Positions 5,708 through 64,000 of a stretch of DNA of 64,000 nt are shown piece by piece (position 1 is the first letter of the stretch; each line of letters begins with the position of its first letter). The DNA comes from Pyropia yezoensis. Taxonomy: Eukaryota > Rhodophyta > Bangiophyceae > Bangiales > Bangiaceae. Below the pieces are notes generated by a model, which made no database searches, was not told where the DNA came from, and saw only the letters and a program-made list of their open reading frames with translations. Made by a program: the position numbers and the translations under genes. The stretch lies in contig CM020618.1 of NCBI GenBank assembly GCA_009829735.1, forward strand, positions 31,348,894 through 31,412,893, given 5' to 3'.

Positions 5708-5772
5708 CGCAGTTGCAAACGAGCAGTTACTATCCCGACGATGGGGAGGGGACCGTTTCGATCCGCCCCCCG

Positions 5773-8279: not shown

Positions 8280-8381
8280 CCGCGCCCTCTCCCCCGTTCC
8301 CGACCACCCTCCACACGGTGTGCCGCGCCCCCTCCCTTCCCCCTCCCCTCCCCCCCCCGTCCCCCCCCACACCCCCCGCAG

Positions 8382-9770
8382 CTGGTGACGGCCAAGGCGG
8401 CGGGTGGTGTCGCGGTGGCGGCGACCGGACCGGTGCGTTTGTTGTGGGCGGAGGGGGGGGGGTGGGGAGGGGGGGGGCGTGAGGAGGGGGGGAGAGTGTG
8501 GGAGGGGCAGCGGTGGAGGATCGGCGGCCGGCCTGGCGGGAGCACGGGCGCGGCGGCTCTGTTGGGAGAGGGGGGCGGGTCGCGCCAGCACCGGCGGCGC
8601 GGTTTCTTCAAGCCGCGCCGCCGCCGCTGCTGGTGGGCCGCCCCCGAGCCGCGCCCCCGCCCCACGGCCGCTGGTTCTCTGCCGTACCTTTTTCCCCTCT
8701 GTCCCCCCCCCCCCCCCTCCCCCACCCCCCCCCCCCCCCCCCGCAGGTGGCAGCGGCCAAGGCGGCTGGTGGTGTGGCGGTGACGGCGACCGGACCGGTG
8801 CGTTTGTTGTGGGCGGAGGGGGGGGCGTGAGGAGGGGGGGGGCGTGAGGAGGGGGGGAGAGTGTGGGAGGGGCGGCGGTGGAGGATCAGCGGCCGGCCTG
8901 GCGGGAGCACGGGCGCGGCGGCTCTGTTGGGAGAGGGGGGCGGGTCGCGCCAGCACCGGCGGCGCGGTTTCTTCAAGCCGCGCCGCCGCCGCTGCTGGTG
9001 GGCCGCCCCCGAGCCGCGCCCCCGCCCCACGGCCGCTGGTTCTCTGCCGTGCCTTTTTCCCCTCTGTCCCTCCCCCCCCCCCTCCCCCACCCCCCCCCCC
9101 CTTCCCCGCAGGTGGCAGCGGCCAAGGCGGCGGGTGGTGTGGCGGTGACGGCGACCGGACCGGTGCGTTTGTTGTGGGCGGAGGGGGGGGCGTGAGGAGG
9201 GGGGGGGCGTGAGGAGGGGGGGAGAGTGTGGGAGGGGCAGCGGTGGAGGATCGGCGGCCGGCCTGGCGGGAGCACGGGCGCGGCGGCTCTGTTGGGAGAG
9301 GGGGGCGGGTCGCGCCAGCACCGGCGGCGCGGTTTCTTTAAACCGCGCCGCCGCCGCTGCTGGTGGGCCGCACCCGAGCCGCGCCCCCACCCCACGGCCG
9401 CTGGTTCTCTGCCGTGCCTTTTTCCTCTCTTTCCCCCCCCCCCCCCCTCCCCCACCCCCCCCCCCCCCCCCCCGCAGGTGGCAGCGGCCAAGGCGGCGGG
9501 TGGTGTGGCGGTGACGGCGACCGGACCGGTGCGTTTGTTGTGGGCGGAGGGGGGGGCGTGAGGAGGGGGGGGGCGTGAGGAGGGGGGGAGAGTGTGGGAG
9601 GGGCGGCGGTGGAGGATCAGCGGCCGGCCTGGCGGGAGCACGGGCGCGGCGGCTCTGTTGGGAGAGGGGGGCGGGTCGCGCCAGCACCGGCGGCGCGGTT
9701 TCTTTAAACCGCGCCGCCGCCGCTGCTGGTGGGCCGCCCCCGAGCCGCGCCCCCACCCCACGGCCGCTGG
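8382..9770 (+). repeat. Tandem array, about 365-bp unit, four copies, exon-like cassettes
   Basis: Four near-identical units follow one another with periods of 365, 365 and 366 bases. Each holds a long C-rich pyrimidine tract ending in CAG, then a 51-nt block (8382-8432, 8747-8797, 9112-9162, 9478-9528), then GTGCGT. The 51-nt blocks read VAAAKAAGGVAVTATGP or a close variant. A fifth CAG acceptor-like site lies at 9821, before the helicase ORF. This layout resembles duplicated exons of length divisible by three with C-rich polypyrimidine tracts, but no transcript evidence is available. Long open frames on both strands here are a by-product of GC content. Confidence 0.85.
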
Positions 9771-9921
9771 TCCTTCTTCTCGCTCCTCATTCACCCCTTT
9801 CTTCGCCCGCCCCCCCCGCAGGTGGTGGCCCTGACGTTGGGAGGTGGCGGCCGCTGGTGCGTCTGGCGGCACAGCCCGCAGGTGGGGGGCGGCACCGAGG
9901 CCGGTGGGGCCGCTGGCGGCG

Positions 9922-12900
9922 ATGGCGGTCACACCACCGGCGGCCGAGCCGGTGGCTGACCCGGCGGCCGTGTCGGCAGCGGAATCGGTCGCGTCGCCGG
10001 TGGTCGTGCCCGCCGCGTCGGCGTCGGAGGTGGCTGACCCGGTGACCGGGCCGGTGGATGTGGCGGGTGCAGTGCCGACGGTCGTGGCTCCGGCGGCTCC
10101 GGCCGAGCCGCCGCCCGCGTCAACGGGCATGTCAAGGGCGGCGTCGGCCGAGGCGTCGGCGGTCTCGCCGGCCGAGCCGGCCGTCGCGGTGTCGGGCACG
10201 TCGACGGCGGCGGCGTCGGCGGGCAAGTGGACGGTGCCGGCGGACGCGGTGGCGGTCGCGGTGCTCGTCGTGTCGGCGGGCGCGGTGCCCGGGACGATGG
10301 CCGCGTCGGCCGCGCCAGTGGGTGCGGTACCCGTCGTGTCGGCGGGCGCGGTGCCCGTCGTGTCGGCGGGCGCGGTGCCCGTCGTGTCGGCGGGCGCGGT
10401 GCCCGGGACGATGGCCGCGTCGGCCGCGCCAGCGGGTGCGGTGCCCGTCGTTTCGGCGGGCGCGGTGCCCGTCGTGTCGGCGGGCGCGGTGCCCGGGACG
10501 ATGGCCGCGTCGGCCGCGCCTGCAGGTGCGGTGCCGTCCGCGCCTGCGGGTGTGGGTGCGGTGTCGGGCACGTCGACGGGCGCGGTGCCCGGGACGATGG
10601 CCGCGTCGGCCGCGCCAGCGGCTATGGCGCCGTCCGCGCCAGCGGGTGCGGTGTCTGTCGTGTCGGCGGGCGCGGTGCCAGGGACGATGGCCGCGTCTGC
10701 AACTGAGCCGTTGGCGCGGCAGCAAGAGGTGCCCGTTGACGACGACGAAATCGTACCGGTGCGAACGGGCCGGTGTGCACCCATAATGGCGGACGAGCCG
10801 GTGGCGGAGATGCTGGACATCACAGGCCCTGAGGTGGGGCCAGCGGTAACGGGGACGGCTGTGGCGGTTGGCACTGACCAGTCAGGGGTTGCGGTGGCCA
10901 GGCGGGCACACAACACGGGTGCCCTCGGACTGGTGCATGAGTGCGACGCCCTCTTTGCTCGCGTCGGCCCTCGGGAGACGACCCAGGCCGACGCCCTGTG
11001 TGTGATCCAGGCCACGTCGACGCTTCTTCGTACGGACCAAGGTGTGCAGGTTGCCCGGGCCGCTGTTGCCCACCTGTCCCACTTGTATCTGCCACACGCA
11101 GGCGACCCGGTCGTGGCACGAGTGATGGCTACCGCCGTTCGACATACCCTTCGCGGCCCGGGTTTGGCAAACCTGCCTCGCGACAACCTCGAGGCACTCG
11201 TGGACATGTTTGTCCTCCCCGTCATGGTTCCTGACGTGTGGCGTGCAAATACAGCGATCCACCGCCTGGCGGTGCGGGCTGCGGCGGTGGCGGCGCCCAC
11301 ACAGATGCTGGTGACCGGCCGGTCTGGGCGGAAGCGGCTGCGTCTCACCGCCCCTGGTGGCCCTGCCGTCCCGGCCTTGTGCGGTCCTGGGGGCCCAGCG
11401 GGTCCGGCTGCGATGCCGTCTTCCCGTTCATTAGCGTTGACCCCCCCCCGCGCGGACTTTCGACACCCTAGGGCGGACGAGCCGCCGGCGACGCTTCCCG
11501 GGCAAGATGCGCATGTTGTAGCAGACGCTGGCAGTGGTGGTGGCCAGGAGCTCGCCCACTTCAGCCGCGAGATGGTCGCTGCTGTCGCCGCCGTCTGCCC
11601 GAAATGGCTGCGCGAGCACGGGCCGCTGGTCGATTCTCCTTCCTGGCCGGAACAAGTGCGGTTTTTCCGTACCGCCTGGTCCATGGGCGTCTGGCCACCC
11701 GAGGCCCAGCGCTTCCTGCTCGACGCATGTGCGACAGACACTGCCACCGTGCATCAGGCGGTGCTGGCGGGCAAGGGTGGTACTGGAGCGCCCCAGCAGC
11801 CGTTAAAACTGCACACCCGCCTGTGGTCGCATCTGGTCGAGTCGGTCTTCGTACCTGCCGTCGTGGAGCGGGGTGGCGGTGACGACGAGCCTGTCCCGGC
11901 CGGTGCGGGCAGCTCTGACGACGTTGCCCTGCTGATGTCCATGCCAGGGACGCTGGCAATGTTGCCGACGGACTTCTTTGATGCTTTTGAAGAAATCAAG
12001 GCGTGGGGAACGGCCATATGTGACATCGCGGCTTTGCTCTTCCCAACCGTTCTGGGACACCCGGGCGCTGCTGCTGCTGCCGCCCCGGCTGCGGCCCTGT
12101 TTTCACGTTTTGCGAGGGTCACTGCCTCGGACACTGGCGTCGGGTGGCTGGTGGCGCCCAGCTCAAAGTCCCGACTGTCCGCCCGGGACGTCATCCGTCG
12201 CCTAGCCGGTGTGGGTGAGCGGGGGGGCGGTCGGTCTGATTCGCGGTCCGTCATGGACCTGCTGGATGGGTGCTCACCCGACCTGCCCGACGGGGGGGGG
12301 CGCGGTGACTCCGCCTGCGAGACCACCAGCGCTGCCGCCCCGGGTCCGCCTTGTGGTGGCCTGCGACCTTTAGACGCCCTGCGCGTCATCCAAAACGCCC
12401 TGCAATTGCTGGATGTTAGTGCGCGCACTGCTCGTGCGGCTAGTCACTGGAACGGCATCCCCCTGCAGCTGTTTGCCGTAAGTACGGCGTTTGTGCGGGG
12501 CGGCCGACAGGTGCTGACGGACGTGAGCGCGGGGCCCCCGGCTGCGGCTGTGGGCTCTCAAGGCGATTCGGACAAAATGTCAGAGGGTGGGGCGCTCGCC
12601 CGTGTCCTGCACCTGCTCATGCGGCTGGGCATCCACGGAGACGTGTCGCAAGCACGGAGTGTCATCCGCTACGCGCTCGTCGGGTGCCTCGCCCGACTCG
12701 CCGATCCCGCTGGGTGCTCCACCCATTTTGACATCTTGGACGCGGGACACATCGCCCCCGTTGTCAACGAGTGGGTTGACTCGCTGCCGAGCCTTTGGGA
12801 GGTTGCCGTCGGAAACGACAAGGCGGCGCGGTCGCGATACAGCTGGGTGTACTATGCGGCCATTTACAACCTGGGGAGTATACCGCTTGCGTCTGGTGTG

Positions 12901-15900
12901 CGGGCATCTCGGAGGGCGCTGGCCAACGCAGCAATTGCCTGGTTGGCGTCCCCCTCGAGTATGTCGCCCTGGACCGGACGAGATTGCGAGAGTACCTCCC
13001 AGGCCCTCCACAGGCTGAGGAGTTTGCTCTGTCCGCCTGCCAAGCCTGGCAAGCGGGTCAGCCCCCTCGTCGAGCAACTTCGTCAGCGCATCGACGAATT
13101 ACTCGGCGGGTCTGCTGCGCCAGACGACACTGCGGCGGGTGCTGCGCCAGACGACGCTGGGGCGGGGGCTGCTGCGCCAGACGACGCAGGGGCGGGGGCT
13201 GCGTCTGCCGATGAGGTAGGTGCCGGGCCAGGTGCCGACAAAGATGGGCGACCTCCCCCAGCGCCCGATGCGACCATGGCGATTCCGTCCGGTGACGGTG
13301 ACCCCGACGGCATTACCATTGGCGACGACGCGGGGGGCGAAGTAGAACTTGTGTGCTACCTACCCGCAGTGGCGGTCCCAGACAATGTGTTGGCTGCGCA
13401 AGCAGTTTCCCCTGTCTACAATGCGGAACCCTGCAACATCATTGTGTTCATTGACGACGACGATGACTGGAATGACGCAGAGAAGGATGACGTGACTGTC
13501 GTCAGTGTGGCCCGGGTGGTCCAGGCCGGCCAACTGGTCGGGCAGCGGCGCACGTCCTCCGCCACTGGGGCGGCCGCCCGTGTGGCAGTAGCTCAGAGTG
13601 CTGCCACCTCTGTCGCGGCGGCGGCGGCGGGGGGTGATGCCAGCCTGGCCAGTCCTCCCACACTGTGTGGAGCGGATGGTGATTGGGTGGCGCTCGGTCA
13701 GCTGACGCTCTGTACGTCCGAGTCTGGGTGGACGGGTGTCCCAACCCACCTGCGCCCGTCCCCGTTGTACGCAAGAGGACCTGGGGGCCGCTGGCAGGCC
13801 ATCGTTTTCGCCACCTTGTGCCAGCTAGCCGCCCGCGGTACAGAGGCGGTGGAGCAGTCTATCGAAGGGAGCAACAAGGGCCATGGCGGCGGCGGCGGAC
13901 GCAGTGGGCGCGTGACCAAGTCGTCATTGTGCTCGTCCTTTGGCGTGGCTCGCATCGACGCGCCCATAACCCTGTCGTCGCCGCAGGTGGGGGGCTCCAT
14001 CTTGGACGACCCGCGGGCGTGTCGCATGTGCAACGTGCTTGTGCGTATGCCCGCCCCCCGGGGTGGTCCCCCCGGTGGGGGCGGCCGCCACCACCGCTGC
14101 CACAAGGACCGCGGGGGAGAGTGTCAAGTGGACCCCACAGACGCCACCCCGGGTGATTTATGTGCCTTTTGGGTACCGGAACCCGTCGGCTCGGTGTGCA
14201 GCACCCCCGTGGTCGCCGTGTTTATTGGCCGCTGCGAGGACAAGGAGGGGCAATTCGGCGGGGGGGTTGGTGGCCCACCGCCCGCGGGGGCAGGCCAGTG
14301 GTGGGTGGACAAGACGCCTGGCCCGGGGCTGGACGAGGGGGACCATGACGCCGGCACGGCGCGCCACGGTGGCACATCAAATCCCCCCCGGCGGTGGTGG
14401 TTTGCGGTGCGTCGTTCAGACGTGCGGCGGATGCTCCATCGCCGGACGGCGAATGTGGTCGTCACCCTGTCTCATAGTGTCCTGTTGGACAGCCGCGAGT
14501 TTGGCGGCCTCGGCCACTGGGACCTTCTTCCGCCAGTCATGCAGAGGGCGCTCCCCATCCACGCAACGCCTCCGCACGGGGGACAGCCGGTGGTACCTGT
14601 ACCGGCACCGGGGCCTCCCCCCCCGCAGAGTGCTCCTCCACGCTACGCCCACCTGGACGAGTTCCAGTGGCGCGCAGTCGATTGCATGCGCCGGGGGCTG
14701 TTGTCGGACGAGTGTGACGTGCAGCTGGTGACGGGCCCCCCCGTGACGGGCAAGACACGCGCCATTGTCTCTATGGTGGACATGGTACTTGGGACCCTGC
14801 CAGACGAGCGGGTCCTGCTGACGTCGCGCACCAACACGGCGTGCGACGCGCTGTTGGACGCAGTGCACGAGTTGCTCTGTCCGTCGTGGGCTGCCAGTCG
14901 ACACGGCGTCGCGAAACCCGATGCCGTGATGCTCCTCCGTGTGGGTGAACCCCCTCCGGATGGCCACCGTGCCAAGACAACGCACATTGACGCCCTGGTG
15001 GACGAGCGCCTTCCTGTCGCCTACCCGTCCGTGACAGCCGCGGTGGAACGGGCAAGGACACGGGTGGCCGATGTGGGCCGTCGTGTGGATCGTTCCCGCG
15101 CCCAGGGTGCAGAGCCGGGCGCGGGTGGGTCACAAAACCTCCTCGAGGAATGTGCCGATGCGGAGCAAGCCCTGGGGGCTGTCTTGCGTCGCCAGCAGCG
15201 TGCGGAACGGGAGCTCCGCAAGCGCATCGTGGGCGGCGCGTCCGTCATTGTCACAACCACGTCAACGTCGACGGGGGCGCTCGTGGGGGGTCAAGGCTTT
15301 GACGCCATTATCATTGACGAGGGTGCGGCAACAAGGGTCCCTGCGTCTGTCGCCGCCATTGTTCGCGCCAAGCGGGCGGGGCGTGCGGGTGGCTCGTCAG
15401 ATGAAGAAGAGGACGGTCATCCGGCAGAGCGGACCAAGTGCATTGTCCTTGTTGGCGACAATGCCCAGCTGAGGCCGAGCGCCGGCATGGAGTACAGGGG
15501 CGAGACACGGCCGATGGCATCCAGCGTTTTTGAGCGGCTCGCCAGGCCTCTGTCCGCTTGCGTCATCCTCTCCGTGCAGTACCGCATGCGGCCGCTGTTA
15601 TGGTCCCTCCTCCGAGAAGTCTTTTACCGGCACATTGGCATATGGTCGGACGGGCGCGGGCCCAAGGCCCGCCATGAGGAGGGGTTTGGAACACCCGCGT
15701 GGCTAAACCATCCGGGACAGCCTATTCGCTTTGGAGGGCTGCAAGTGACAGACACCTCCCGCCTGCCGGCCGACGATCGGGCGCACAAGACGGGTTCTAC
15801 CACCCCGAACAACAAGAGCCTGATTAACGTTGCAGAGCTTCAGTTGGTCGAAATGGCTCTTACGGATCTTCTGCGGGCGTGGGCGACGTCCAGCGGGGCT

Positions 15901-16320
15901 ACCGAGCTCAAGGTGATGCTCATCACCCCGTACACTGCGCAGCGGAACAAGCTGAATGAGGTGGTGCAGTCGATGAGAGACAGCAGGCGGCTGCCCCGCC
16001 GACCATGTGCCGACGTCAGGGTGTCCACCGTGGATGGCTGCCAAGGCGCTTCTGTGGACTGTGTCATACTCTCCCTCGTGCGGTCAGAGCCTGGGGCGCC
16101 ACCCGGCGGGAGCACCGACTTTTTGTCCGACGAGCGGCGCGTGAACGTCATGATGTTGCGGGCACAGAGCCATCTCCACGTGATTGGTGACATGGACTAC
16201 CTTTCAAGCTCTGGGGGTGTGTGGAAGAGCTGGTGGGACAACGTCCGCCGTAGGTGGAGCCGTCCAGATCGACGGGACCGCGAGCACATCAACATTGTGG
16301 CTCCCGACAGGGTGTACTAG
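9922..16320 (+). CDS. Large SF1 helicase, UPF1/ZNFX1-like
   Basis: An uninterrupted protein of about 2,132 residues starts at the first in-frame ATG; the frame is open further upstream, so an upstream exon is possible. Residues 1 to about 290 are Ala/Val/Pro/Gly low complexity. The middle is unrecognised, with a Cys/His cluster near residues 1365-1405 (CRMCN...HHRCH) that may bind zinc. The C-terminal third holds superfamily 1B helicase motifs. These are Walker A GPPVTGKT (residues 1605-1612; the family usually has GPPGTGKT), Walker B IIIDEGA near 1799, LVGDNAQLRPS (motif III), VQYRMRP (motif IV), STVDGCQG (motif V) and DERRVNVMMLRAQ (motif VI). Family members are ATP-driven RNA helicases of RNA decay and silencing. 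The closest subfamily and the substrate cannot be told from sequence alone. It ends in TAG just before a 30-G run. Confidence 0.88.
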   Translation: MAVTPPAAEPVADPAAVSAAESVASPVVVPAASASEVADPVTGPVDVAGAVPTVVAPAAPAEPPPASTGMSRAASAEASAVSPAEPAVAVSGTSTAAASAGKWTVPADAVAVAVLVVSAGAVPGTMAASAAPVGAVPVVSAGAVPVVSAGAVPVVSAGAVPGTMAASAAPAGAVPVVSAGAVPVVSAGAVPGTMAASAAPAGAVPSAPAGVGAVSGTSTGAVPGTMAASAAPAAMAPSAPAGAVSVVSAGAVPGTMAASATEPLARQQEVPVDDDEIVPVRTGRCAPIMADEPVAEMLDITGPEVGPAVTGTAVAVGTDQSGVAVARRAHNTGALGLVHECDALFARVGPRETTQADALCVIQATSTLLRTDQGVQVARAAVAHLSHLYLPHAGDPVVARVMATAVRHTLRGPGLANLPRDNLEALVDMFVLPVMVPDVWRANTAIHRLAVRAAAVAAPTQMLVTGRSGRKRLRLTAPGGPAVPALCGPGGPAGPAAMPSSRSLALTPPRADFRHPRADEPPATLPGQDAHVVADAGSGGGQELAHFSREMVAAVAAVCPKWLREHGPLVDSPSWPEQVRFFRTAWSMGVWPPEAQRFLLDACATDTATVHQAVLAGKGGTGAPQQPLKLHTRLWSHLVESVFVPAVVERGGGDDEPVPAGAGSSDDVALLMSMPGTLAMLPTDFFDAFEEIKAWGTAICDIAALLFPTVLGHPGAAAAAAPAAALFSRFARVTASDTGVGWLVAPSSKSRLSARDVIRRLAGVGERGGGRSDSRSVMDLLDGCSPDLPDGGGRGDSACETTSAAAPGPPCGGLRPLDALRVIQNALQLLDVSARTARAASHWNGIPLQLFAVSTAFVRGGRQVLTDVSAGPPAAAVGSQGDSDKMSEGGALARVLHLLMRLGIHGDVSQARSVIRYALVGCLARLADPAGCSTHFDILDAGHIAPVVNEWVDSLPSLWEVAVGNDKAARSRYSWVYYAAIYNLGSIPLASGVRASRRALANAAIAWLASPSSMSPWTGRDCESTSQALHRLRSLLCPPAKPGKRVSPLVEQLRQRIDELLGGSAAPDDTAAGAAPDDAGAGAAAPDDAGAGAASADEVGAGPGADKDGRPPPAPDATMAIPSGDGDPDGITIGDDAGGEVELVCYLPAVAVPDNVLAAQAVSPVYNAEPCNIIVFIDDDDDWNDAEKDDVTVVSVARVVQAGQLVGQRRTSSATGAAARVAVAQSAATSVAAAAAGGDASLASPPTLCGADGDWVALGQLTLCTSESGWTGVPTHLRPSPLYARGPGGRWQAIVFATLCQLAARGTEAVEQSIEGSNKGHGGGGGRSGRVTKSSLCSSFGVARIDAPITLSSPQVGGSILDDPRACRMCNVLVRMPAPRGGPPGGGGRHHRCHKDRGGECQVDPTDATPGDLCAFWVPEPVGSVCSTPVVAVFIGRCEDKEGQFGGGVGGPPPAGAGQWWVDKTPGPGLDEGDHDAGTARHGGTSNPPRRWWFAVRRSDVRRMLHRRTANVVVTLSHSVLLDSREFGGLGHWDLLPPVMQRALPIHATPPHGGQPVVPVPAPGPPPPQSAPPRYAHLDEFQWRAVDCMRRGLLSDECDVQLVTGPPVTGKTRAIVSMVDMVLGTLPDERVLLTSRTNTACDALLDAVHELLCPSWAASRHGVAKPDAVMLLRVGEPPPDGHRAKTTHIDALVDERLPVAYPSVTAAVERARTRVADVGRRVDRSRAQGAEPGAGGSQNLLEECADAEQALGAVLRRQQRAERELRKRIVGGASVIVTTTSTSTGALVGGQGFDAIIIDEGAATRVPASVAAIVRAKRAGRAGGSSDEEEDGHPAERTKCIVLVGDNAQLRPSAGMEYRGETRPMASSVFERLARPLSACVILSVQYRMRPLLWSLLREVFYRHIGIWSDGRGPKARHEEGFGTPAWLNHPGQPIRFGGLQVTDTSRLPADDRAHKTGSTTPNNKSLINVAELQLVEMALTDLLRAWATSSGATELKVMLITPYTAQRNKLNEVVQSMRDSRRLPRRPCADVRVSTVDGCQGASVDCVILSLVRSEPGAPPGGSTDFLSDERRVNVMMLRAQSHLHVIGDMDYLSSSGGVWKSWWDNVRRRWSRPDRRDREHINIVAPDRVY
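10260..10706 (+). repeat. Coding minisatellite in the helicase N-terminus
   Basis: The DNA repeats a 24-nt unit coding VVSAGAVP and a longer unit coding GTMAASAAPAGAVP, alternating about ten times in frame with the helicase. Unit lengths divisible by three keep the frame open, so copy number can vary without breaking the gene. Confidence 0.85.
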
Positions 16321-16353
16321 TCGGGAGTATCTTTTGTTTCTGGGGGGGCAAGT

Positions 16354-16383
16354 GGGGGGGGGGGGGGGGGGGGGGGGGGGGGG
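16354..16383 (+). repeat. Run of 30 G
   Basis: An uninterrupted 30-base G run lies 34 bases after the helicase stop codon. It can form G-quadruplexes and is a likely site of length error in assembly. Confidence 0.95.
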
Positions 16384-16606
16384 CTGTACGGCACCTTCTC
16401 TTTTTTATGCTTTGAAGGTGTCGCTTTTCATGTGGTGGTCGGTTGTTCCCCAGTGTTGTTCCCAACTGCTGTCGTTGATGTTTTGAGTTGCGTGACCAGT
16501 TGGACAAAGGCTCATATGGCAAGGTCGCGCCCAAGTGCCACAGCACCGTCCGTGTATGTGAGCCCACAGCTCAGCGCCCAGGACTCCGCCGTGGTCGGCA
16601 GGCACG

Positions 16607-17188
16607 ATGGCGGGCTCATCGCGTCGCTATCTGTCCGACTGTGAGCGCGCGGGGTCATCACCGGCCTCCTCCAACAGAAGAGGTCCTTCCGGGCCATCGG
16701 TACGGATTTGGGGCGCTCCAAGAGCACCATCGCCTACGCAGCCATGGGCCATCCGCACGGAGTCCGCCCGCGCCAGGGTGGGCAAGCGGGGTCGCCCCAA
16801 GGTTTTGATGGACCGTGAGCTCTGTAACCTCAAGCGGGCGCTTGACACCGACGGGTTTTCCTCTGTGGCATCCCTGAAGGAGATGGTGAATAACACGCGC
16901 ACCCAAGCGACCAGAGGGCCCGAAAAGGGACCAGTGTCAGTCTCCGCTGTCCGCAGGGCCGTCTGGAGCTTGGGTTTTCACTTTAGGGGGTAGCGGCCAA
17001 GAAACCCTTCCTGTCTGCCAAGAACGTCGCGAAGCGCCTTGTGTGGGCCACAGCGCACCGCGGCTGGATGGCTCTGCGCGACGGGTGGGACGCCATTCCT
17101 GCTTCGTTTATCAAGTCTCTCGTGGAGTCGATGCCCTGTCGTGTGGGGGGTGTGATAGCCGCTGCGCAGCGTATCTAAAACCGTGTAT
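16607..17188 (+). pseudogene. Tc1/mariner transposase remnant
   Basis: The start carries the paired helix-turn-helix typical of Tc1/mariner transposases: a first helix set in one frame (LLQQKRSFRAIGTDLGRSKS) and a second in another (VGKRGRPKVLMDRELCNLK, then VSAVRRAVWSLGF). From about 17000 a family-typical block (KPFLSAKNVAKRLVWATAHR) runs directly into the C-terminal signature (WDAIPASFIKSLVESMP at 17087-17137). The DDE/D catalytic core that should lie between is absent, and the readable pieces sit in at least three frame segments. It is therefore a dead, internally deleted DNA transposon. The neighbouring inverted repeats may be part of its end or of a later insertion. Confidence 0.8.
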
Positions 17189-17817
17189 CTTATTTTCCGT
17201 GCATCGGGCCCAAACAGGCGGGCAGTGGATTGCAGGGGGGCGCCCAGGGGCCCCGTAAAGCCCGATTTCCGCGTGCAAGAGCGCACACGGCCGCGTTGTG
17301 ACCGTGCTTCCTACTCTTTTTTTTTTTTTTCTCTCCTCGACGACCGTCATCAGGACGGCAAGGCCTACATTCCCACGGCCTGTGTCCGTCTCGCCGGAAA
17401 GGCGTGCCGCGGGGCGCACAACAAGGCGACCGTGACCCGAGAGTACGTGTCTATGCAGCAATATCCACGTTTCATGACGTGCCCGAATGGTGTCAGTCGC
17501 TGGTGCTGCACTGCTGCACTGCTGTGCAGGCTTCCTCACGTGACCGCGTTATGCAATGCATGCGACGGGCACGGCATTCACGTGTTTGTGAATGTTGCTG
17601 CAGGCACGGTGTTTTGCGCGACCAGGGCCGCACTTCAAATTGTGCATGCCCTGCAGCGTTTTACATGATGCCAAGGCGTGCACCGCTGACAATGTGAAAT
17701 TTTACGGCTTTGCAGAAGCGGCGACGCCCGGGCCCGCGGGGCATGCAAACAGGCATTCGACAGTGCGCGCACGTGCCGGCACGGAAAATAAGATACACGG
17801 TTTAAGACCCGCTACGC
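17169..17817. repeat. Inverted-repeat pair bounding a 649-bp segment
   Basis: A 25-base perfect inverted repeat (core AATAAGATACACGG) occurs at about 17178-17202 and 17779-17803, with weaker matching outward to 17169 and 17817. The left arm overlaps the very end of the Tc1/mariner remnant. The 649-bp span has the size of a MITE, or it could be the transposon's own terminal region duplicated in inverse. No clear target-site duplication was found. Confidence 0.65.
17350..17668 (+). other. Cys-rich open stretch inside the inverted-repeat segment
   Basis: The frame reads a Cys/His-containing sequence (for example TCPNGVSRWCC and LCNACDGHGIHVF) that looks less like random GC-rich translation than its surroundings. 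There is no plausible ATG of its own and no family was recognised. It could be a fragment of a captured exon or chance. Confidence 0.25.
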
Positions 17818-19174
17818 TGGGGGTGCTAGCACGAGGTATTGTCCAGCCCAGGGCCTGGATTTGATGGGTGGTCTGTAGTCAAATCGATCCGTACGAATCT
17901 CGTTTTTCGCCGTACGGATAATATTGGGATAATATTGGGTACCGACTGTACGTAACGCTCTTCGGATCTTTGTAGACATTGTTCGCCAGTGCTGACGTCT
18001 CGCGTTTGGTGCATAACGGAACGAGCTGGGCGGTCACATAGTTGTTCTTTTGTGTGGGCGCGTGAATTAGTGTCTTCCGATTGCGTCATGGTGGGGGGGG
18101 AAACCATAAAGAGAGGGCGACGGGCGGGGGAGGGGGGGCGAATTGAATTTCGATATCTGAGATCCCCGACCACCGGCTGACACTGACGCGGATCGAACGG
18201 GAGGGGAGGGGATTTGGGCGGCGGCGCGAGATGATGTTGAATTGGACGGTGCCGGGGGTGTCCGGGGATGGGTGCTCTCATCCGTCGGCCGCACGTTCAG
18301 CCACAGGCAGGTCCGGTCAGTCGCTTCCCTCGGCGCCCCCGGGTCTGACGAGAGCCGTAGGTCCACGCGGCCCGCGCGGCGTCGTGTGCTGGTGACTGGC
18401 CATTTGGAGGCACCGCGCGGTGAGCTCGCAGCATGGCAATGCCGTCTGTGGCGGTGGGTTTGAGGTACACGACTGCCCCCCCTCCCCCCCCACCAAGACG
18501 TCCAGGATGACATTTTTCCCAAACGGTGCTCGTAATGCATTGCAAACGGACGGGGCCTGCCGGAAGCACCAAAAGGCTGGGTGCCCGCGTCCCAACACGC
18601 CGCCCCACATGCTCCGTGGCGAGCAGGCAGTGCCGAGGGTGGGTTCAATTGCAGTGTTGTTATTGTCCCGCAGCATGGTGGCGGTCACGCTCCCAATACG
18701 TGCCGTCGGGAGCGGGGGGGGGGGGGGGGGGGGGGGGGGGGGCGCTCGCTCGCCATGGTTGGGCGAGCCGCACGGATGCTGGCGTGTCAGTCGGCTCAAA
18801 TGCCACAGTGCATGCGGTGCACTCCGTCCGCACCCACCGTCGTGCGACTGGCGGCTGCCATGAGCACAGAGTCTGTGCGCGGTCTGCAATGGGGCCGCCA
18901 ACCCCATCACCACCCCCGCCGCCGCCACACCATCACCGCCAGCCCCACCACCGCCACCGCGAGCCCCTCCACCACCACCGCCGCCGCGCCACAGGACACT
19001 CTCACGGCAGCCACCGTCGGCCACGGGTGCCGTGGAGATGAGAAGGACCTTTCATTTCCGGGGCGGCGAGCTGAGACCACGCGATAGCCCACAGGGGCAC
19101 GTGGCGGTGCGAGCATCCTTTGCTCTGCCCCCTGCCCGAGAGGTAGCTTCGGTTGGGGGGAGGCGGGGGGCGGG

Positions 19175-19219
<45 letters not shown>

Positions 19220-19360
19220 CGGGGGGGTGGGGGGGGGGCGGGGGGTTATGAGGACCCGGACCGCCGGCCTCCTGACGGCCCGTGCAGCCCATCGCCAGCG
19301 TCTACAGCACGCGTACGGCATCGAGTGAGGACCCCGGCACGGATGGTGCCTTGCCAGACG
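17818..19360. other. Intergenic region with G runs upstream of the Fanzor gene
   Basis: No gene is supported here. An AT-richer island at about 17880-17990 contains the direct repeat GATAATATTGGG twice. There are G runs of 29 (18714-18742) and 44 bases (19176-19219). Short open frames on both strands lack family signatures. This could hold the left end of a Fanzor-carrying transposon, but no inverted repeat matching the downstream side was found. Confidence 0.5.
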
Positions 19361-19368
19361 ATAAATAG
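19361..19368 (+). promoter_or_regulatory. TATA-like box upstream of the Fanzor gene
   Basis: ATAAATAG stands out in GC-rich DNA, about 172 bases before the Fanzor ATG. Its position suits a core promoter with a leader of about 140 bases that would include the 37-C run at 19493-19529. Assignment is by motif and position only. Confidence 0.4.
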
Positions 19369-19491
19369 GGCGGTAGGTGGTGCCCCGAGGTTCCCCGTCT
19401 TTGCCGACCCCATCAGCCACCGTCGACAATCCCACCCACGCACCCTCCTCACAGTCGTTCCCACACACACAACCCGCTCTTCCGCCTCCAT

Positions 19492-19492
<1 letters not shown>

Positions 19493-19529
<37 letters not shown>
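19493..19529 (+). repeat. Run of 37 C before the Fanzor start codon
   Basis: An uninterrupted C run ends 10 bases before the ATG at 19540. It could be part of the 5' leader, or a pyrimidine tract. Confidence 0.9.
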
Positions 19530-19531
<2 letters not shown>

Positions 19532-19539
19532 GATTCACG

Positions 19540-22500
19540 ATGAACGATGATGACGACGGCAGCGACCAAGACATTGGCGTCGACGGGCTGGACGGCGACA
19601 CCACCTCAGACGAGGAGTGGGACCCGACACAAGAGCAGGCGTACGTTCAAGACGCACGCAACGTGGTGACGCTCAAGCGGGCGGTGCTCGCCGCCAACCT
19701 GAGCCGCCTGCAGGGCGTGTCTGCACCCCCAGGGGGCGACGCGGCCTCGTCGGCCGACTGGTCTGCCGCCGTCGCGCAGTTGCAGCAGGCGGCCAAGGAT
19801 GAGGAGGCGGCGGGCCCCCTCGACGGCGCCGGCGAGGACCTCGTCGCGGCCATCACAGACGCGGCAGAGGCGGTCAGCGTGTACTGTGGTGGTCGGGCGG
19901 CGCCAAGCGAGGCCGAGGAGGTGGAGCTCGCCGCACGCGCCAAGACGGCCGCTGGGCTGATTGGCGTGGCCGCCGCGGGCTTGCCCCGGCGCGGGGCTGC
20001 CACTGACGCACCGCCCGCCCGCAAGGGGCGGACGCAAAAGTGTAGCGGATGTGGCGAGCCAGGGCACAAGGTCACCTCTTGCAAGGCCCCGGCTGGTGCA
20101 GGGCCGGCAGCCGCTGCCGCCGCCGCTGCCGCTGCCGCCGCCGTCCCGGCGGCGGCGGCGGCGGCCGCGTCCAAGTGTCGCGACTGCCTGGGAGGGGGCC
20201 ACAGCAGCGGGGACGCCGCCTGCCCGGTTCAGCGGCACTGTGGGGGCGTGTCAGCGGCCTACGACCGCGGTCTCAACCCCGACTGCAAGAACCCGCTTCA
20301 GAGCACTGGACGGCAGATGCGGGCGTGTACCGTGCCGGTGGGCGTCGTCGCGAGGGCGGTGTTTGGGGACGACATGGACGACGCCGACACGCGCGCGGCG
20401 GTGGAGACGGCGCTGCAAGCAGAGCTGGAGGACCTCTCTGGGGCGGCTACCAAGCTCCGCTTCCTCATGCTCCGCGTCCTCGACGTGGCATTGCGGCGCC
20501 TGGTGTCGACCGTCACGGACGCAGCCGCCGACGACGCCGACTGAACGCGGGCCGTGCCCGCAAACTGGGCGCCCGTCTGGCTGTGGTTGGCCTACGCCTG
20601 CGGCTGCGAGGGTGTGTATGGCAGTCCCCTGCAGGCGGGCACCGTGTGTGCGGGCTGTGGCAAGGGGTGGGCCAACACGCGGATGGCGCGCGCCCGCTCT
20701 GTGGTGACAACGAGCCACCCGCTGCTGGCAGAGGCGCTCTTCTACGCCCTGACGCGGGTGATGGCCGTCACAGCAGCTGCGTGGGACCGGTATCTTCCGG
20801 TGAGCAACAAAACGGCACGATGAGAGCCCGTCGCCACCATCGTGGCCACCCACGCCGGGCGGTGTGTGGACGCGGCGTGTCGCAAGCTGGGCGCCAAGGC
20901 GGCCAAGGACGCGCTGGCCACCCCCCCCGCTGCCACGTCTGCTCCAGCGGGCGGCTCTGCCTGGGACACGGAGCGGCGGCTGACGCGGTGGGCCGCCGCG
21001 CGCTTTCGCGCGGGTACCGCGGACAAGGCAACGCCGGGCCGGCGGGGCCTCGACGGCGTCCCCCAGCACCTGGTCCAGGCGCTCGCGCAACGGGTAGCCG
21101 TCTTGCGGGCGGCCATGCCACCCTTTGTGGCGGGCCTCTTTCCAGCAACGCCTGTGAAGAAGCGCCGCTGGTGGGCGTACGTGCCGTTTCTCCTCCACGT
21201 CCTGAATGTGGGTGTGGAGAGCCCGTACGCCCTCATCCCTGGCGCCCGAGCGGTGCTCCACGGGCACGGCACGCTGGTGCCGGACAGGATGCCCGCCCTG
21301 TTGCGGGCAGTTTCGGCCGCCACTGGCGTGGGGGTGCGTGGCCACCCCAGTCGTCGGGCATGGCCAGAGCTGCGAACGGGCGGTGCAGCGGTGCTGGCCG
21401 CCATTGCTGGTGTCGGTGGCCGCGCCAACCGGGCCGCCTCCCAGCTGTCTACCGACGGCGTGGCGGTAACGTTTTTTCTCTCTCGACCCGACACGGCCGC
21501 AGAGGCCGAGGCGCGGGCGGTGGCCTGGGCCAAGAAGCTGGACGGCGGTGGATGTGCGCGGGACCGCGGCGGCAAAGGCTTTGCGTCCCGGGCGGGGGTA
21601 CTGACGCAGCTCGAGCGGGCTGGCCTGCCGTTGGCGCGCGTCCGGTGGCTCCAGATGGTCGGTGGAGACCCGGGACGATCTGCCGTGCTGTCGGCAGCAC
21701 CGGGTGAGCGCGTGGCGACGGCAGACCTCCCCGCCCGCCCCGTTGTAGCCGCGATGCGCGCCGCGTGGTCCCGCCACATGTGCTTGGACGCGCTCAACCG
21801 GGCGGCCGTGGCGCTCCTGCGTGGGGCGGGCGTCCAAGACGGGGTGCCGGCAGCCGCAACCACGCCCGAGGGCCACCCACCGGGGGGGTCTAGGAAGCGG
21901 GCGGCGGCGGGCGCCCCGGCTGCAGGGGCGGGGACAGGGGGGGGCCGCTCCAAGCGACAAGCGCGGCGGTCGTCACCCGAGGGCAGCGACGATGATGCGG
22001 CGGCGGTGGCTCCGGCGGCGGCGGATGGGACGACGCCCCCCGAGGCAAGGACCTACCAGACGGCGAGCCCCGGCGGTGGCCACGGGCGCGTGCGGCGTGG
22101 GCCGCAGGCGTCCATCCGACGGGCCCGCCGCACCCAGCTCGCCACCTCGGTGCGGCGTGTGCTGCGTCGCACGCGCCTGTCCCGGTGGACTGTGCCCCGT
22201 CACGAGGCGGAAAAGGTGGTACGGTGGCTGGTGCACCCCACTGCCGCGGCGGGCGAAAGTGCCAGCGGCACCACCCTAGACGCGCCGCTGCAGAACCGGG
22301 TGGACGCGCTGCCCCGGCGCAAGGGGTGTCGTCGACTGGCACCCGTCCCCGGCCTTCGCTACAGCCTGAGTGCCGCCCACTTTCGGGAGGCCAGCGGCGG
22401 TAACTTTTTGGCCCGTGCGTGGAAGCAGTGGCGGGCACGCAGCGGTACTGAGGCGGGAACGGTGGCGGTGGCGGTGGCGGGACTGGTGGCGGCGGCGGCG

Positions 22501-23730
22501 GGTGACGGAGGCGGCGTCGCTGGCCACCTACCACCCGTCGACTTGGCAGCAGCACACGGCACGATGCGTACCGACGACGACGGCAAGCACCTGCAGGCAA
22601 CGCTCGAGTAGGCCGCCCGTCGCGACACGGCCGCGTACGGCCAGCGATTTGGCGCGCAAGCCACGCGACACCTGCTGACGGCGCGTGTGCGCAAGGCCAT
22701 CCAACGCGGCCGCTTTGCTGCCACGGTGGCGCCGAACCTGACCGGCGGCCTCCTTCGCCAGGTCCGTGGCGGCGGCGCGGTCGTCGTGGCCATGGGCACC
22801 GCGCGCGTGCGCGGGGGGGACGCCTGGCTCCGCCACCACCTCCGACGGCTGTGCTGGTTTGTCGACCAGGACGAGTTCAACACCAGCCAGGCGTGCTCCG
22901 AGTGTCACGACAAGATGGTGCTCATCTACTCGACGGGCAACTCCCCCCCCAAGATTCCAAGAGAGCTGTATGGGCCGCCGGCCGGCCCTCTGCCGTCGAC
23001 ACGGCGTGTGCGGATGGCGGCTGGGTCGCGTCGGGGGCGGCCAAAGCGGGCCCTCCCCTCTGCTACCCACATGACGCGCCGAGGGCCAGACCCCGACGCC
23101 TACCGGGCGGCCGTCCGAGCCACTGCCCGTGCTGCTGCTGTGGCGCGGCGCGCGGCCGCGCTGGCCGCCTGTGCCGTCGAGGACCGCGCCGTCTATGCCG
23201 ACCCGAGGCGGCTGAGCGAGTGGGCGGCCAAGGGCTGCTACACGTGCTCTCTCGCGGCCCCACAAGGCCCCGGTCATCCAGCGCCACACCCGCCCGTCAT
23301 TCGCAATCGGGACGACGTTGTGGCCCGCAATATGGCGTGGGTGGCCGCTCGTCGTCTAACGGGTACGGACGTGTGGCCTTTCAAGCGCCCGTTTGGTATG
23401 AGGTGGGCCTGGACGGCCAAGCGTCCTCCAAGTGGTGTTCCCGTCCCGCCTGTACGTCGCACCCGTGCGACTACGCGGGTCGATGTATGGCCCGTACTGG
23501 CTGCAGTGGACACTGTCGGCGACGGTGGGGGTGGGGGTGGCGGTGGCGGTGGCGGTGGCGGTAGGGGGGTTGTCGACGGCGACGCGACGGCGGCGTCCTG
23601 TACGACGCGACGCGGTGCTCCTGGTGGGGAACGGGTGGCGGCGGCCGGCAGTGCCATGGACGGGGTACGTCGGGCGGAGACGGGGGCGACAGACGCGCCC
23701 CGTGGTCTGGTGGACACTGCAAGACGCTAA
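19540..23730 (+). pseudogene. Fanzor1-like RNA-guided nuclease (eukaryotic TnpB), interrupted by three same-frame stops
   Basis: One frame of 1,397 codons holds the Fanzor/TnpB layout. Near the N-terminus are a CX2CX4HX4C zinc knuckle (codons 168-181) and a second CX2CX4HX6C knuckle (213 on). Further on come the family TDGVAV motif (638), RuvC-I GGDPGRSAV (Asp at 710) and the RuvC-II region VVVAMG (1081). Then follow DQDEFNTSQACSEC, which starts the four-Cys zinc ribbon (Cys 1119, 1122, 1233, 1236), and RuvC-III NRDDVVARNM (Asp 1258). Fanzors are OMEGA nucleases spread by transposons in eukaryotes and cut DNA guided by an RNA made from their own 3' region. The frame never shifts but meets TGA (20542), TGA (20821) and TAG (22609). 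Either it is a recent pseudogene, or the stops lie in unseen introns or are read through. It is longer than most Fanzors because of Ala/Gly-rich inserts. The family call is confident; activity is not. Confidence 0.85.
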
Positions 23731-23794
23731 GACAGCGCACATCTTGCCCGTGACCCTCACCTACCACGGGGTGCGTCACCCGCCCCCTTTTTCG

Positions 23795-23823
23795 CCGACA
23801 AGCCAATTATGGGTAATTGTCGG
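23795..23823 (+). ncRNA. Hairpin just downstream of the Fanzor ORF (candidate guide-RNA or 3' end structure)
   Basis: CCGACAA and AATTA pair with TAATT and GTCGG around a TGGG loop, with a small GCC bulge. It lies 65 bases after the Fanzor stop, in AT-richer DNA than its surroundings. Fanzor guide RNAs are known to come from the 3' end of the gene and adjacent sequence, so the place is suggestive. The identity as RNA is inference. Confidence 0.3.
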
Positions 23824-24086
23824 CCGTTCACTAGCAGGTTAGACGCCGGCTTTTCCCGGGGACCTTTCCCAGCATGAGTCGGATGTTTCCCGGAGGGGTT
23901 TAACCGATAGTTGTTCTGAGATGGTAGTGTTTCCTTGACAATTCTTTCTGGCTCCCATTTGTACCCGTCTGTCGTTTGCACGCTTCCCCGGGGCGGACGA
24001 CCGAAGGCAGTCAGCGATGCCTTTGCACACGACCACGAGGTGGCGGCGGGCGGGCTCCTGGCCAGCTGGTGCTTCAAGGCGCCCGC

Positions 24087-24354: not shown

Positions 24355-24643
24355 CTGCGGATCCCCGCTTGTCGCGACCGTCGTGACGGTTGCCATTGAG
24401 ACGACGCCCCCCGCAGCACACCCGGGCAGGGTCCTCTTAACTTGCCGAGCGGTGGGTGGGTCGGGCCCGTGTGCCACACCGGGCCTCAGTGCCGCCTTCA
24501 GCCCTCCTACTCAGTGTCTCTGCCTGGTCGTCTGCCAACCTGCCCGGCTCCGTCCGCCTCCACCCTCACCCTTCTCCCTTCTCCTTGCACCGCTCTTTGC
24601 TACCCTTGTCCTCTGTCCCCATCCCCCCCTCCCCCCTTCCATC

Positions 24644-25132
24644 ATGGGCTTCCCCTTTTTTTCCTGGTCGTTTGCGCGCACGCACGCCTTTAAGCTTATC
24701 TGCACGGCGGTTTTTTCTCGCATGGACGGGGACAAGGATGGGAAGCTGGACTCGCACGAGCTCTACTACGCCATGCAGGACGTTCACTCCAAGATCCGCC
24801 GCCGCATCCCTGGCGTTCCCGCCCCCCCGTCGCGCCACGAGATTTCCAAGTCCATTGCGGCGTTTGACAAGGAGGGTGACAAGACGCTCACCGCCCCGCA
24901 GTTTACCGAGTTTGCCTCGTCCTTTTTCCACAACAATGTGCGAGTGGTGAACCTGGTCAAGGTGGTGGCGGCGGCGGCAGTCAAGTTCTTTGTGCTCCCA
25001 GAGGCGACCAACCAGCTGCGGCTGACCAACCCAGTCCTCAAGCGGATCCCCAAGGGGGTGTGGGGGACCGTTGTTGGTTCGGCTATGCAGATGCTGGGCG
25101 CGCGGATGCCCATGGGCACGGCTCGGGCTTGA
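24644..25132 (+). CDS. Small EF-hand calcium-binding protein
   Basis: A 162-residue protein starts at the ATG of ATCATGGGC after a long pyrimidine-rich leader. The first EF-hand loop is canonical: DGDKDGKLDSHE at residues 28-39, with Asp at positions 1, 3 and 5, Gly at 6 and Glu at 12. The second at residues 75-86 (DKEGDKTLTAPQ) keeps the spacing but has Gln at position 12, so it probably binds calcium weakly or not at all. The C-terminal half is hydrophobic and basic and matches no family I recognise. The short hydrophobic N-terminus (GFPFFSWSF) could be a membrane contact. Such proteins are calcium sensors or buffers. It is convergent with rsmH. Confidence 0.75.
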   Translation: MGFPFFSWSFARTHAFKLICTAVFSRMDGDKDGKLDSHELYYAMQDVHSKIRRRIPGVPAPPSRHEISKSIAAFDKEGDKTLTAPQFTEFASSFFHNNVRVVNLVKVVAAAAVKFFVLPEATNQLRLTNPVLKRIPKGVWGTVVGSAMQMLGARMPMGTARA

Positions 25133-25739
25133 GTAGAGGGGGGGAACCTTCCACTGGCCTGTCATTTTCGGGCGCCATCGACTATCTATCTTGTATAGGG
25201 GTTTGCTTGCTGGGTGGGGCGACTGTCGCTTCCACGTTGTTCCTCTTGTTCCCCCGATGATGTTCGTTGCGGCCCTGCTTCGGCTGATGGGAGAGGCACG
25301 AGGCTGTGACAGAGCGATTGTGTTTCCGTGGCGCCACAGTGCCACAGCACATAACACATGAGACACTGTGTCAATGTCAATGCACAAACGTGCACATGCC
25401 AGTGTCAGTTCTTCGGGCGGGAGTCAGAGGTCAGCTGGTTGTTATGCCGGCCGCCACGGACACATCATCGCACGGACTCCCATGCACATCGTAGGTCCCA
25501 TGGCTCCTTCGCAACTCCTACGCAAATACGAGGTTGAGCAGATGCGCGACGATCTGTCTCGAACAAAAAAACAGGGCACTTCCAACCACGTCGACCGTCG
25601 GCCACCGACTACCTCAACGGCATCCACCCCCCAGCCCGTGTCCCAGTGACAATTGCCTGCTCAGTTCCACCCCGTACCATGCCTAGCCCCTGCTGTTGCC
25701 TCCCCCTGCCTTCCCATCAGTGTGCCCCCCCCCCTTCCT
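25133..25739. other. Intergenic spacer between convergent genes
   Basis: The spacer separates the 3' ends of the EF-hand gene and rsmH. The part at 25310-25560 is less GC-rich and has small palindromes (GTGGCGCCAC, GACACTGTGTC). A 13-base stretch here (AGTGCCACAGCAC) also occurs just before the Tc1/mariner remnant near 16536, so an old transposon fragment is possible. No gene is supported. Confidence 0.5.
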
Positions 25740-27398: not shown

Positions 27399-27850
27399 GG
27401 CCGCAGGCCGCGCGCGGGGGTCCCCACGAAAGGGTGGGGAGGGGTGGGGGGGGGGAGGGGGAGTGGTTGGGGAGACCGAGAAAAAGCACGGTGACGGCGG
27501 CAGGCGAGTGGAGGGGGGAGAACCGGCGCCCGGCCGGGGTACTTACGGTAGCGGGCGCCCCGCGACGGGGAAGGTGGGCGCGTTGCACAGCGGCGGCGAC
27601 AGTACCCGGCGGTACCGCACCGCGGTGGCCAGCGGCGGCGGCGAGCGGCGGCGGCGAGCGGCGGCGGCGAGCGGGCGGAGGCGGCACTCGGCGGTGGCGT
27701 GTGGCGGATCCGTGGAGGCGAGCGGCGCGTCGCGGGCGCGTAGCCTAAAACTTATAGCCTAAAAGCCTATTTGCGTGGCAGATCAAGTCCGGGCAAGCCA
27801 CCGCCGGGCACGCCGACGTCGCCCCTTCCTCTATATCGCGTTACTCTTCC
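27399..27850. promoter_or_regulatory. Divergent promoter region, rsmH and acylphosphatase
   Basis: The start codons of rsmH (minus) and the acylphosphatase gene (plus) point away from each other across about 450 bases. An AT-richer patch at 27741-27780 repeats AGCCTAAAA, and TCTATATCG lies about 20 bases before the acylphosphatase ATG. A CGGCGGCGAG microsatellite occupies 27620-27690. A shared promoter is inferred from orientation. Confidence 0.4.
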
Positions 27851-28462
27851 ATGACGACACCGCCCCCCCCCCCTTCGGTGCCCTCGGCTTCCTCCCCTGC
27901 ACCCCTGCCACACACCTCTTGCTTTCCTGAAGACCCCCCGAGCTGCCTACGACCTCCACACTCCCCCCCTTTCTCTTTCCACGCTCTCGTCGCACCTTCC
28001 ATCGCTGCTGCTTGCCATCCCACCTGTCGCCTCTCCCCCTACTCTCCCGACGTGTTCCGCCCCACTCCGTCCACCCCCCCCCCCCCCCCCCCCCCCCCGG
28101 CAATGGCCACCCCCCCCCCCGCCCCCCCCACAGAGACCGCCCCCCCTAAAGGCAAGAACAGCAACACCACCACCACCATGGCCGTCCGCCTGCGCATCAC
28201 CGGCACCGTCCAAGGGGTGTGGTACCGCGCGTCGGCGGTGGCAACGGCCCGCCGGCTGGGCGTGGCGGGCACAGTTGCCAACGCCGCCGACGGGGCGGTG
28301 GTGGCAACCGTCGCGGGCACCCCCGCCGCGGTGGACGCGTTTGTCGCGTGGGCGCGCGTCGGCCCGCCCGCCGCGACGGTGCGGGGAGTGGAGGTGACGC
28401 GCCTGCCGGGGGGGGGGGGCGTGCCCCTGGGGGGGGGGATGACCATTGGCCGCACCGGCTGA
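27851..28462 (+). CDS. Acylphosphatase
   Basis: The last 94 residues (from Met at 28178) form a complete acylphosphatase domain. It has the VQGVWYRASA loop, equal to the family VQGVGFR with its catalytic Arg, and VAGTVANAADGAVVATVAG, which supplies the catalytic Asn. The length matches the usual 90-100 residues. The enzyme hydrolyses the carboxyl-phosphate bond of acyl phosphates. The frame continues upstream to an ATG at 27851, giving an extra 109 Pro/Ser/Thr-rich residues. That extension could be an organelle-targeting peptide, or the true start could be at 28102 or 28178 and the rest be leader. A poly-C run inside it makes the exact frame there less secure. Confidence 0.85.
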   Translation: MTTPPPPPSVPSASSPAPLPHTSCFPEDPPSCLRPPHSPPFSFHALVAPSIAAACHPTCRLSPYSPDVFRPTPSTPPPPPPPPAMATPPPAPPTETAPPKGKNSNTTTTMAVRLRITGTVQGVWYRASAVATARRLGVAGTVANAADGAVVATVAGTPAAVDAFVAWARVGPPAATVRGVEVTRLPGGGGVPLGGGMTIGRTG

Positions 28463-57070: not shown

Positions 57071-57073
57071 AAG

Positions 57074-59565: not shown

Positions 59566-59630
59566 CGGGGGGCGGATCGAAACGGTCCCCTCCCCATCGT
59601 CGGGATAGTAACTGCTCGTTTGCAACTGCG

Positions 59631-63815: not shown

Positions 63816-64000
63816 CCCTGGGCTACGCACCCTTGACCTGGTCAGCCAGTTCCCCGAGGCCAAGTACTGGTTGAAACACCCGAGTGAGTGGGCAGTTTCG
63901 TGGTTCGACTCGGGACACCAAGGGCAACATTCGGTTCCTACAAAGATTTTTTGATGGGGGGCTACTTTATTGTCACCGTCGTGGCGACCATCGTGTTCCC

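Follow-up and report, generated by a model that had tools for sequence, protein, structure and literature searches.

A stretch of 64,000 nucleotides from the genome of the red alga Pyropia yezoensis (nori), C1:31348894-31412893 and hereafter the window, contains what is probably a degraded gene for a Fanzor1-like RNA-guided endonuclease, located at the right end of a giant multigene mobile element. Directly visible in the DNA are the motifs of the fingerprint, the family of repeats with its sharp right end, and the linkage to a helicase. We classify the gene as a long variant of Fanzor1-like type, carried by a giant element to which we assign no class.

A degraded Fanzor1-like gene with two zinc knuckles

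The gene and its motifs lie on the plus strand as follows.

19540..23730, plus strand: Fanzor1-like gene, ATG at 19540, three in-frame stops (from the sequence and intact copies)
20041..20082, plus strand: zinc knuckle 1, CCHC (sequence)
20176..20223, plus strand: zinc knuckle 2, CCHC-like with a longer last gap (sequence)
21451..21459, plus strand: TDG motif of the Fanzor1 WED domain, codon 638 (motif meaning from PMC10711439)
21667..21675, plus strand: RuvC-I DPG with catalytic Asp 710 (pattern search of the frame)
22870..22905, plus strand: alternative-glutamate (Ealt) motif DEFNTSQACSEC, with E1112 and the first zinc-ribbon CxxC (pattern search of the frame)
23236..23247, plus strand: second CxxC (CYTC), codon 1233, 114 codons past the first (sequence)
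23305..23316, plus strand: RuvC-III NRDD, starting at codon 1256, with catalytic Asp 1258 (pattern search)

PMC10711439 describes the combination of DPG and a glutamate located six residues ahead of the zinc finger as the molecular fingerprint of Fanzors, and the TDG motif as characteristic of Fanzor1. The initial annotation had read TDG, DPG, VVVAMG, the zinc ribbon with a second CxxC, and NRDD in that order, and we find them so in the plus-strand frame that starts at the ATG. Its catalytic codons, 710 and 1258, are exact, and the two N-terminal zinc knuckles it named are present. DEFNTSQACSEC begins at codon 1111, with E1112 as the alternative glutamate, and the first CxxC occupies codons 1119-1122.

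The frame is cut by stops at 20542, 20821, and 22609 (codons 335, 428, and 1024), which the initial annotation did not mention. Because of these three in-frame stops, the window copy can no longer make the whole protein and is dead. Introns were rejected as an explanation of the stops, since intact copies read open across the same places; in other genomic copies, the gene is a single uninterrupted frame of roughly 1,400 codons, corresponding to a protein of ~1,400 aa. Just 5' of the ATG, there are a long G tract (19172-19254) and a C tract (19490-19530), whose lengths seem to vary among copies because they break the alignments between them.

Copies and relatives

The Pyropia yezoensis genome (107.5 Mb, 11 contigs) was searched with the conserved core of 255 aa, and 114 matches were detected. 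Sixty-one of them are 80% or more identical across 228 or more of the 255 residues, including 11 with an internal stop, whereas 29 are remote (33-46% identity) and 24 are pieces or intermediate copies. For 17 of the 114, the surrounding frame is open for 1,445 codons or more. The 61 close matches and the 17 long frames indicate that this Fanzor family has been recently active. The remote copies (e.g., C2:7469339, C1:2610888, and C2:15533926), some with frames of 600-1355 codons, appear by sequence to belong to other element families in the same genome.

Protein searches returned five relatives of the nuclease, three of which are hypothetical proteins of Pyropia yezoensis and two of which come from other contigs. 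P0004 (1,347 aa, from a 5.2 kb ENA contig) is 61-62% identical and possesses both knuckles, and P0005 is 56% identical over the core. Twenty genomic loci were fetched for comparison, 12 of them with a frame longer than 1,380 codons (long-frame copies). The whole ordered pattern TDG..DPG..DE[FYW]x[TS][TS]xxCxxC..RD is retained in 10 of these 12 and in P0004. Taken singly, both zinc knuckles are kept in 11 of the 12 and in P0004; TDGVA in 11 of the 12 (L019 lacks the string) and in P0004; and DPG in 11 of the 12 (L027 lacks it), P0004, and P0005. The Ealt piece DEFNTS[QK]AC is found in all 12, and the Ealt motif also in P0004, whereas a lysine replaces the Ealt glutamate in P0005. The first CxxC is conserved, all 12 long-frame Pyropia copies have the second, and the [NH]RD of RuvC-III is present in 12/12 and in P0004.

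In the literature, exclusive of supplementary survey files, we found no report linking Fanzor with Pyropia or with zinc knuckles and none of a giant red-algal transposon with Ulp1 and a helicase; these proteins may already be listed in a published Fanzor survey.

A giant repeat with a sharp right end

The gene lies within a much larger repeat, whose features in the window are the following.

8281..23912, plus strand: giant Fanzor-bearing repeat, the part left in the window (BLAST of loci, genome searches)
9835..16320, plus strand: superfamily 1 (SF1) helicase open reading frame (ORF), AAA_11/AAA_12, Upf1/IGHMBP2/DNA2 type, 2161 aa from stop to stop
16648..17061, plus strand: stop-broken Tc1/mariner transposase remnant (HTH_38 and HTH_Tnp_Tc3_2, both under Pfam cut-offs)
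23690..23912, plus strand: candidate omega RNA, the ORF end plus a 182-nt non-coding tail, with a terminal stem that closes at the right terminus of the element

The Fanzor gene is located at the right end of this element. Homology to the window stops at 23911-23920 in 19 of the 20 fetched loci, exactly at 23912 in 15 of them, and the flanks past this point are unrelated among the loci. The 18-base right end has 82 genomic matches with at most two mismatches, versus a single match for the reversed control, and 63 of the 82 are found on the 3' side of one of the 76 listed Fanzor places, no more than 26 kb away. On the left, the window copy is truncated at 8281 by a Ty3/gypsy insertion that covers at least 1338-8280. 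A genome search had been proposed as the way to reveal the ends of the element; it placed the right end at 23912, but the left end was not found.

The helicase is supported by Pfam (E=1e-33) and by Upf1 in the PDB (E=3e-17), with TIGR00376 below its cut-off. Its 73 genomic matches, less 14 second pieces, give 59 helicase places (two remote ones included). Counted against 85 of the 114 Fanzor matches, 49 of these 59 are followed within 45 kb by a Fanzor place of the same orientation, at a distance of 5.4-7.6 kb in 37 cases. Two helicase relatives with 42% identity, like scores, and 1,786-codon frames (C1:10759813 and C1:8767161) have no Fanzor place downstream.

Farther left, as read in other copies and in the DNA upstream of the window, the element contains a 365-aa ORF on the opposite strand and an Ala-rich ORF whose end weakly resembles PIN domains (PIN_11 at E=0.0075, under the cut-off). 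It also encodes an Ulp1 protease, again on the opposite strand (PF02902, E=2e-13). Matches of at least 1 kb to the Ulp1 region occur at 17 places; for 11 of them a same-strand right end lies 20-67 kb downstream, and the other six have none. As the DNA searches score the best 40 candidates, such copy counts are lower bounds. Copies at C2:13864523-13891100, C1:21517987-21545747, and C3:19671628-19709695 span 26.6, 27.8, and 38.1 kb, respectively, and the left end lies beyond these read spans, so that the element measures 27-38 kb or more.

Could the Fanzor gene be a separate small element nested in the giant one? This is not supported, because the three of the 20 loci whose homology begins inside or near the gene start at differing points (19432, 19619, and 21598).

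Two further sequences touch on the left part. C1:31781165-31786582, on the opposite strand and 0.4 Mb from the window copy, carries left-part sequence of the giant element with no right end nearby and is perhaps the window copy's missing left part, moved by rearrangement. Upstream of the window, the left part of the window's element is adjoined by a high-copy repeat (L041:55-3675; 33 matches of at least 2.7 kb at 92-97%, with 33 of 2686 candidates scored), perhaps a retroelement judging by its ORF.

The vehicle of the Fanzor-like gene

The initial annotation placed the gene next to a dead Tc1/mariner copy and linked the two. A remnant does exist 2.5 kb upstream on the same strand, but it sits inside the larger element, and as a carrier it fares poorly. 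Subfamily A of the repeat matches window 15600-18000 throughout, whereas subfamily B matches up to ~16524 and then again from 18094. The remnant falls in the segment 16524-18094, which is present in subfamily A only; copies of subfamily B (e.g., L010, L012, L018, and L028) have the Fanzor gene and the right end without it. Because its segment is present in one subfamily and absent from the other, the remnant is a passenger of subfamily A, not the vehicle, and the real vehicle is the larger helicase-bearing repeat. That a Tc1/mariner transposon carries the Fanzor as cargo, in the way known from Fanzor1-bearing mariner elements elsewhere (PMC3627910), is accordingly very improbable and already largely refuted. 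The right terminus also has no inverted partner: of the 82 right-end matches (at most 2 mismatches in the 18 bases), none is inverted and within 90 kb upstream of any of the 76 listed Fanzor places.

The lack of a terminal inverted repeat would suit a giant rolling-circle (Helitron2-like) transposon that, in the manner of the Chlamydomonas CRe families, carries the Fanzor close to its 3' end. Right ends (82) exceed left-region places (17 of at least 1 kb), an excess that resembles the 3'-overabundance of CRe-1/2/3 (PMC3627910), and Helitrons do exist in this genome. However, the nearest of the 22 genomic matches to the Helitron Rep domain (PF14214) is 88 kb from any listed element place, the element's far left being outside the reach of this comparison. 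The shortage of left regions, moreover, is partly subfamily divergence (matches of 76-78%), with only 40 candidates scored. The element's helicase is Upf1/DNA2-like, unlike the helicase of Helitron RepHel proteins. On this balance, we consider a Helitron2-like element unlikely. Similarly, none of the five genomic matches to the KDZ transposase (PF18758) lies within 83 kb of the listed places, again with the far left out of reach.

A large DNA virus that became endogenised, or an element of viral descent bearing Fanzor, would be compatible with the size of the repeat, its ORFs on both strands, the Ulp1-type protease, and the SF1 helicase, and Fanzors are known from large viruses of algae and from the transposons of these viruses (PMC13236599, PMC3627910). 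The dozens of ~95% identical copies with a sharp right terminus resemble transposition instead, and no viral hallmark gene was seen among the scanned ORFs, although capsid and polymerase were not searched genome-wide and some stretches were unscanned. We regard a viral origin as improbable. A scan of viral contigs for the Fanzor1-like DNA signature gave no matches.

A candidate omega RNA at the right terminus

The sequence running from the end of the ORF to the right terminus folds strongly. In the intact relative L010, the final 226 nt have a predicted free energy of -102 kcal/mol (z=-4.67), equalled by none of 200 shuffles, and in the last domain the outer stem is formed by ACUA paired with UAGU, one base short of the terminus. 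Fanzor1 guide RNAs form three-stem folds with terminal repeats inside the scaffold (PMC10711439), and by this analogy the terminal fold is suggestive of such a guide RNA. Divergence in the final 150 nt is 0.95% per position, below that of 26 of the 28 ORF windows of 150 nt, and the first 20 bases of the flank are AT-rich (57% versus 33% farther out; 20 loci). In the alignment of 20 copies, changes on one side that preserve the pairing occur in seven of the 74 predicted pairs (10 cells), and 11 pairs have 12 broken or gapped cells. Searches for RNA families and tRNAs found none in the window.

Evidence bearing on the Fanzor identity

The identity as a Fanzor is supported, at the level of sequence, by the published fingerprint and by residue conservation in the 61% identical relative, and the protein most likely works like a Fanzor. 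A range of results nevertheless weighs against our reading. The profile search that had been proposed as a check gave no confirmation: there is no significant match to any Fanzor/TnpB profile or solved structure, and no Fanzor or TnpB chain occurs among the PDB matches at E<=10 by sequence or profile. The Pfam TNB domain (PF07282) stays below cut-off in the window copy (E=0.022), L010 (0.38), and P0001 (0.06) and is not detected at all in P0004 and P0005. The 115 matches of another search rest, by the best alignments shown, on the Gly-rich tail. The distance from the RuvC-I Asp to the TS of the Ealt motif is 404 residues in the window copy (405 in L010 and 366 in P0004), beyond the published range of D-X(125,275)-[TS][TS] given in 2013 (PMC3627910); by analogy with PpFz1, an insertion of that type would explain the over-long spacing. 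P0004 lacks the second CxxC.

The remaining points concern selection, the RNA, and the element itself. Among the 12 long-frame copies (66 pairs), the ratio of nonsynonymous to synonymous substitution rates (dN/dS) is 0.49 overall, with low values at the knuckles (0.31), around RuvC-III (0.33), and in the part 241-560 (0.31-0.33), and this counts in favour of our reading. Against it, the ratio is biased low by the choice of copies for intactness and is higher around TDG and DPG (0.51) and around Ealt (0.58); it is 0.67-0.76 in the N terminus and C-terminal tail. Covariation was found in none of the 74 pairs of the predicted RNA, and other 200-nt windows fold equally well (30 shuffles each), with z of -4.7 at L010 2561-2760 on the minus strand. 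As the ORF-end window ranks second and the terminal window sixth among 76 windows of L010 on both strands, the terminal fold is strong but not unique. The left end, a target-adjacent motif, a target duplication, and a transposase were not seen in the stretches examined.

The absence of a significant profile match and the heavy low-complexity inserts raise the question of whether the motifs arose by chance in a GC-rich, Ala/Arg-rich low-complexity frame, with no Fanzor involved. We consider this extremely improbable. None of 20,000 shuffles of L010 produced the ordered pattern, and the Ealt plus CxxC piece occurs nowhere in the 80,172 six-frame residues of window 23913-64000. The motifs and frame are retained in many copies with dN/dS below 1, and the motifs recur in P0004, a protein of other source. 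The shuffles, the copies, and P0004 in practice refute chance. We chose the label "Fanzor1-like" because the fingerprint is present, whereas the profile and PDB searches, the spacing, and the CxxC of P0004 count against a full assignment.

Comparison with known systems

Starships and other giant eukaryotic transposons are tens of kb long, multigene, and present in many copies, like the nori element. However, no tyrosine recombinase was seen in the nori element, whose left end was not reached, and no genome-wide search aimed at such enzymes was made.

The nori protein and the Fanzor1 proteins of Spizellomyces punctatus, Guillardia theta, and Parasitella parasitica have the order of DPG, Ealt, TDG, and RuvC-III motifs in common (PMC10711439). 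They differ in that the nori protein, at ~1,400 aa, is about twice the usual Fanzor1 length (600-700 aa for most Fz1; PMC11423790), carries two N-terminal zinc knuckles, has the long Asp-to-TS interval described above, and contains a 110-residue spacer within its zinc ribbon. It has no detectable sequence match to the solved Fanzor1 structures.

The Chlamydomonas Fanzor1 Helitron2 elements CRe-1/2/3 are likewise algal and many-copy, with over-represented right ends, but they share their ends with Helitrons and their genes have five or ten exons (PMC3627910), whereas the nori element is giant, its Fanzor gene consists of a single frame, and within 88 kb no Rep was found. CMe-1A of Cyanidioschyzon merolae is also a Fanzor1 element of a red alga with no class assigned and no terminal inverted repeats; it has ~150 copies of ~3 kb, and the passage on it in PMC3627910 mentions no other genes.

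Neighbourhood of the element

Beside the right end, window 24400-28410 holds ordinary-looking genes, including a plus-strand EF-hand ORF and the following.

25740-27542, minus strand: RsmH/MraW rRNA methyltransferase
about 28187-28405, plus strand: acylphosphatase

Farther along, 33397-45138 is a long tandem array with a unit of ~515 bp and stretches up to 98% alike, which may represent a satellite or belong to a repetitive gene. Ty3/gypsy copies at 1338-8280 and 57073-64000 are 96% identical and in opposite orientation. The first (pol with a chromodomain) interrupts the Fanzor element, and the second extends past the window end.

Proposed mechanism and significance

From the RNA onward, we infer how intact copies of this degraded Fanzor1-like gene would most likely serve the giant element. 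A transcript of the ORF 3' end and the right terminus would fold into a guide-RNA scaffold, and, with the scaffold stopping at the terminus, the adjoining host DNA would serve as the guide. The nuclease would then recognise and cut the allele or sister chromatid without the element, and repair would copy the element in, by which it would be kept and spread. The helicase and the other genes may take part in replication or mobilisation, and the zinc knuckles may be an added nucleic-acid-binding module, probably for RNA.

As a tentative proposal, which we put forward as a possibility rather than as our expectation, these elements may represent a new class of giant red-algal transposon. Such a class would have a double-length zinc-knuckle Fanzor permanently at the right terminus, with the guide RNA built into that end. 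The nuclease would be accompanied by an Upf1/DNA2-type helicase, an Ulp1 protease, and a PIN-like protein, and its RNA-guided cutting would drive the copying of elements tens of kb long.

Fanzors are known mostly as proteins of 600-700 aa in small elements, and their role in transposition is unproven. The nori lineage offers dozens of recent copies, long open frames, and a right end that is sharply defined, and at each locus the flank, a possible guide, differs. Because these recent copies, open frames, sharp end, and varied flanks are found in a cultivated alga, the role of a Fanzor for its transposon becomes testable. In addition, the zinc knuckles and inserts broaden the known architecture of the Fanzor family.

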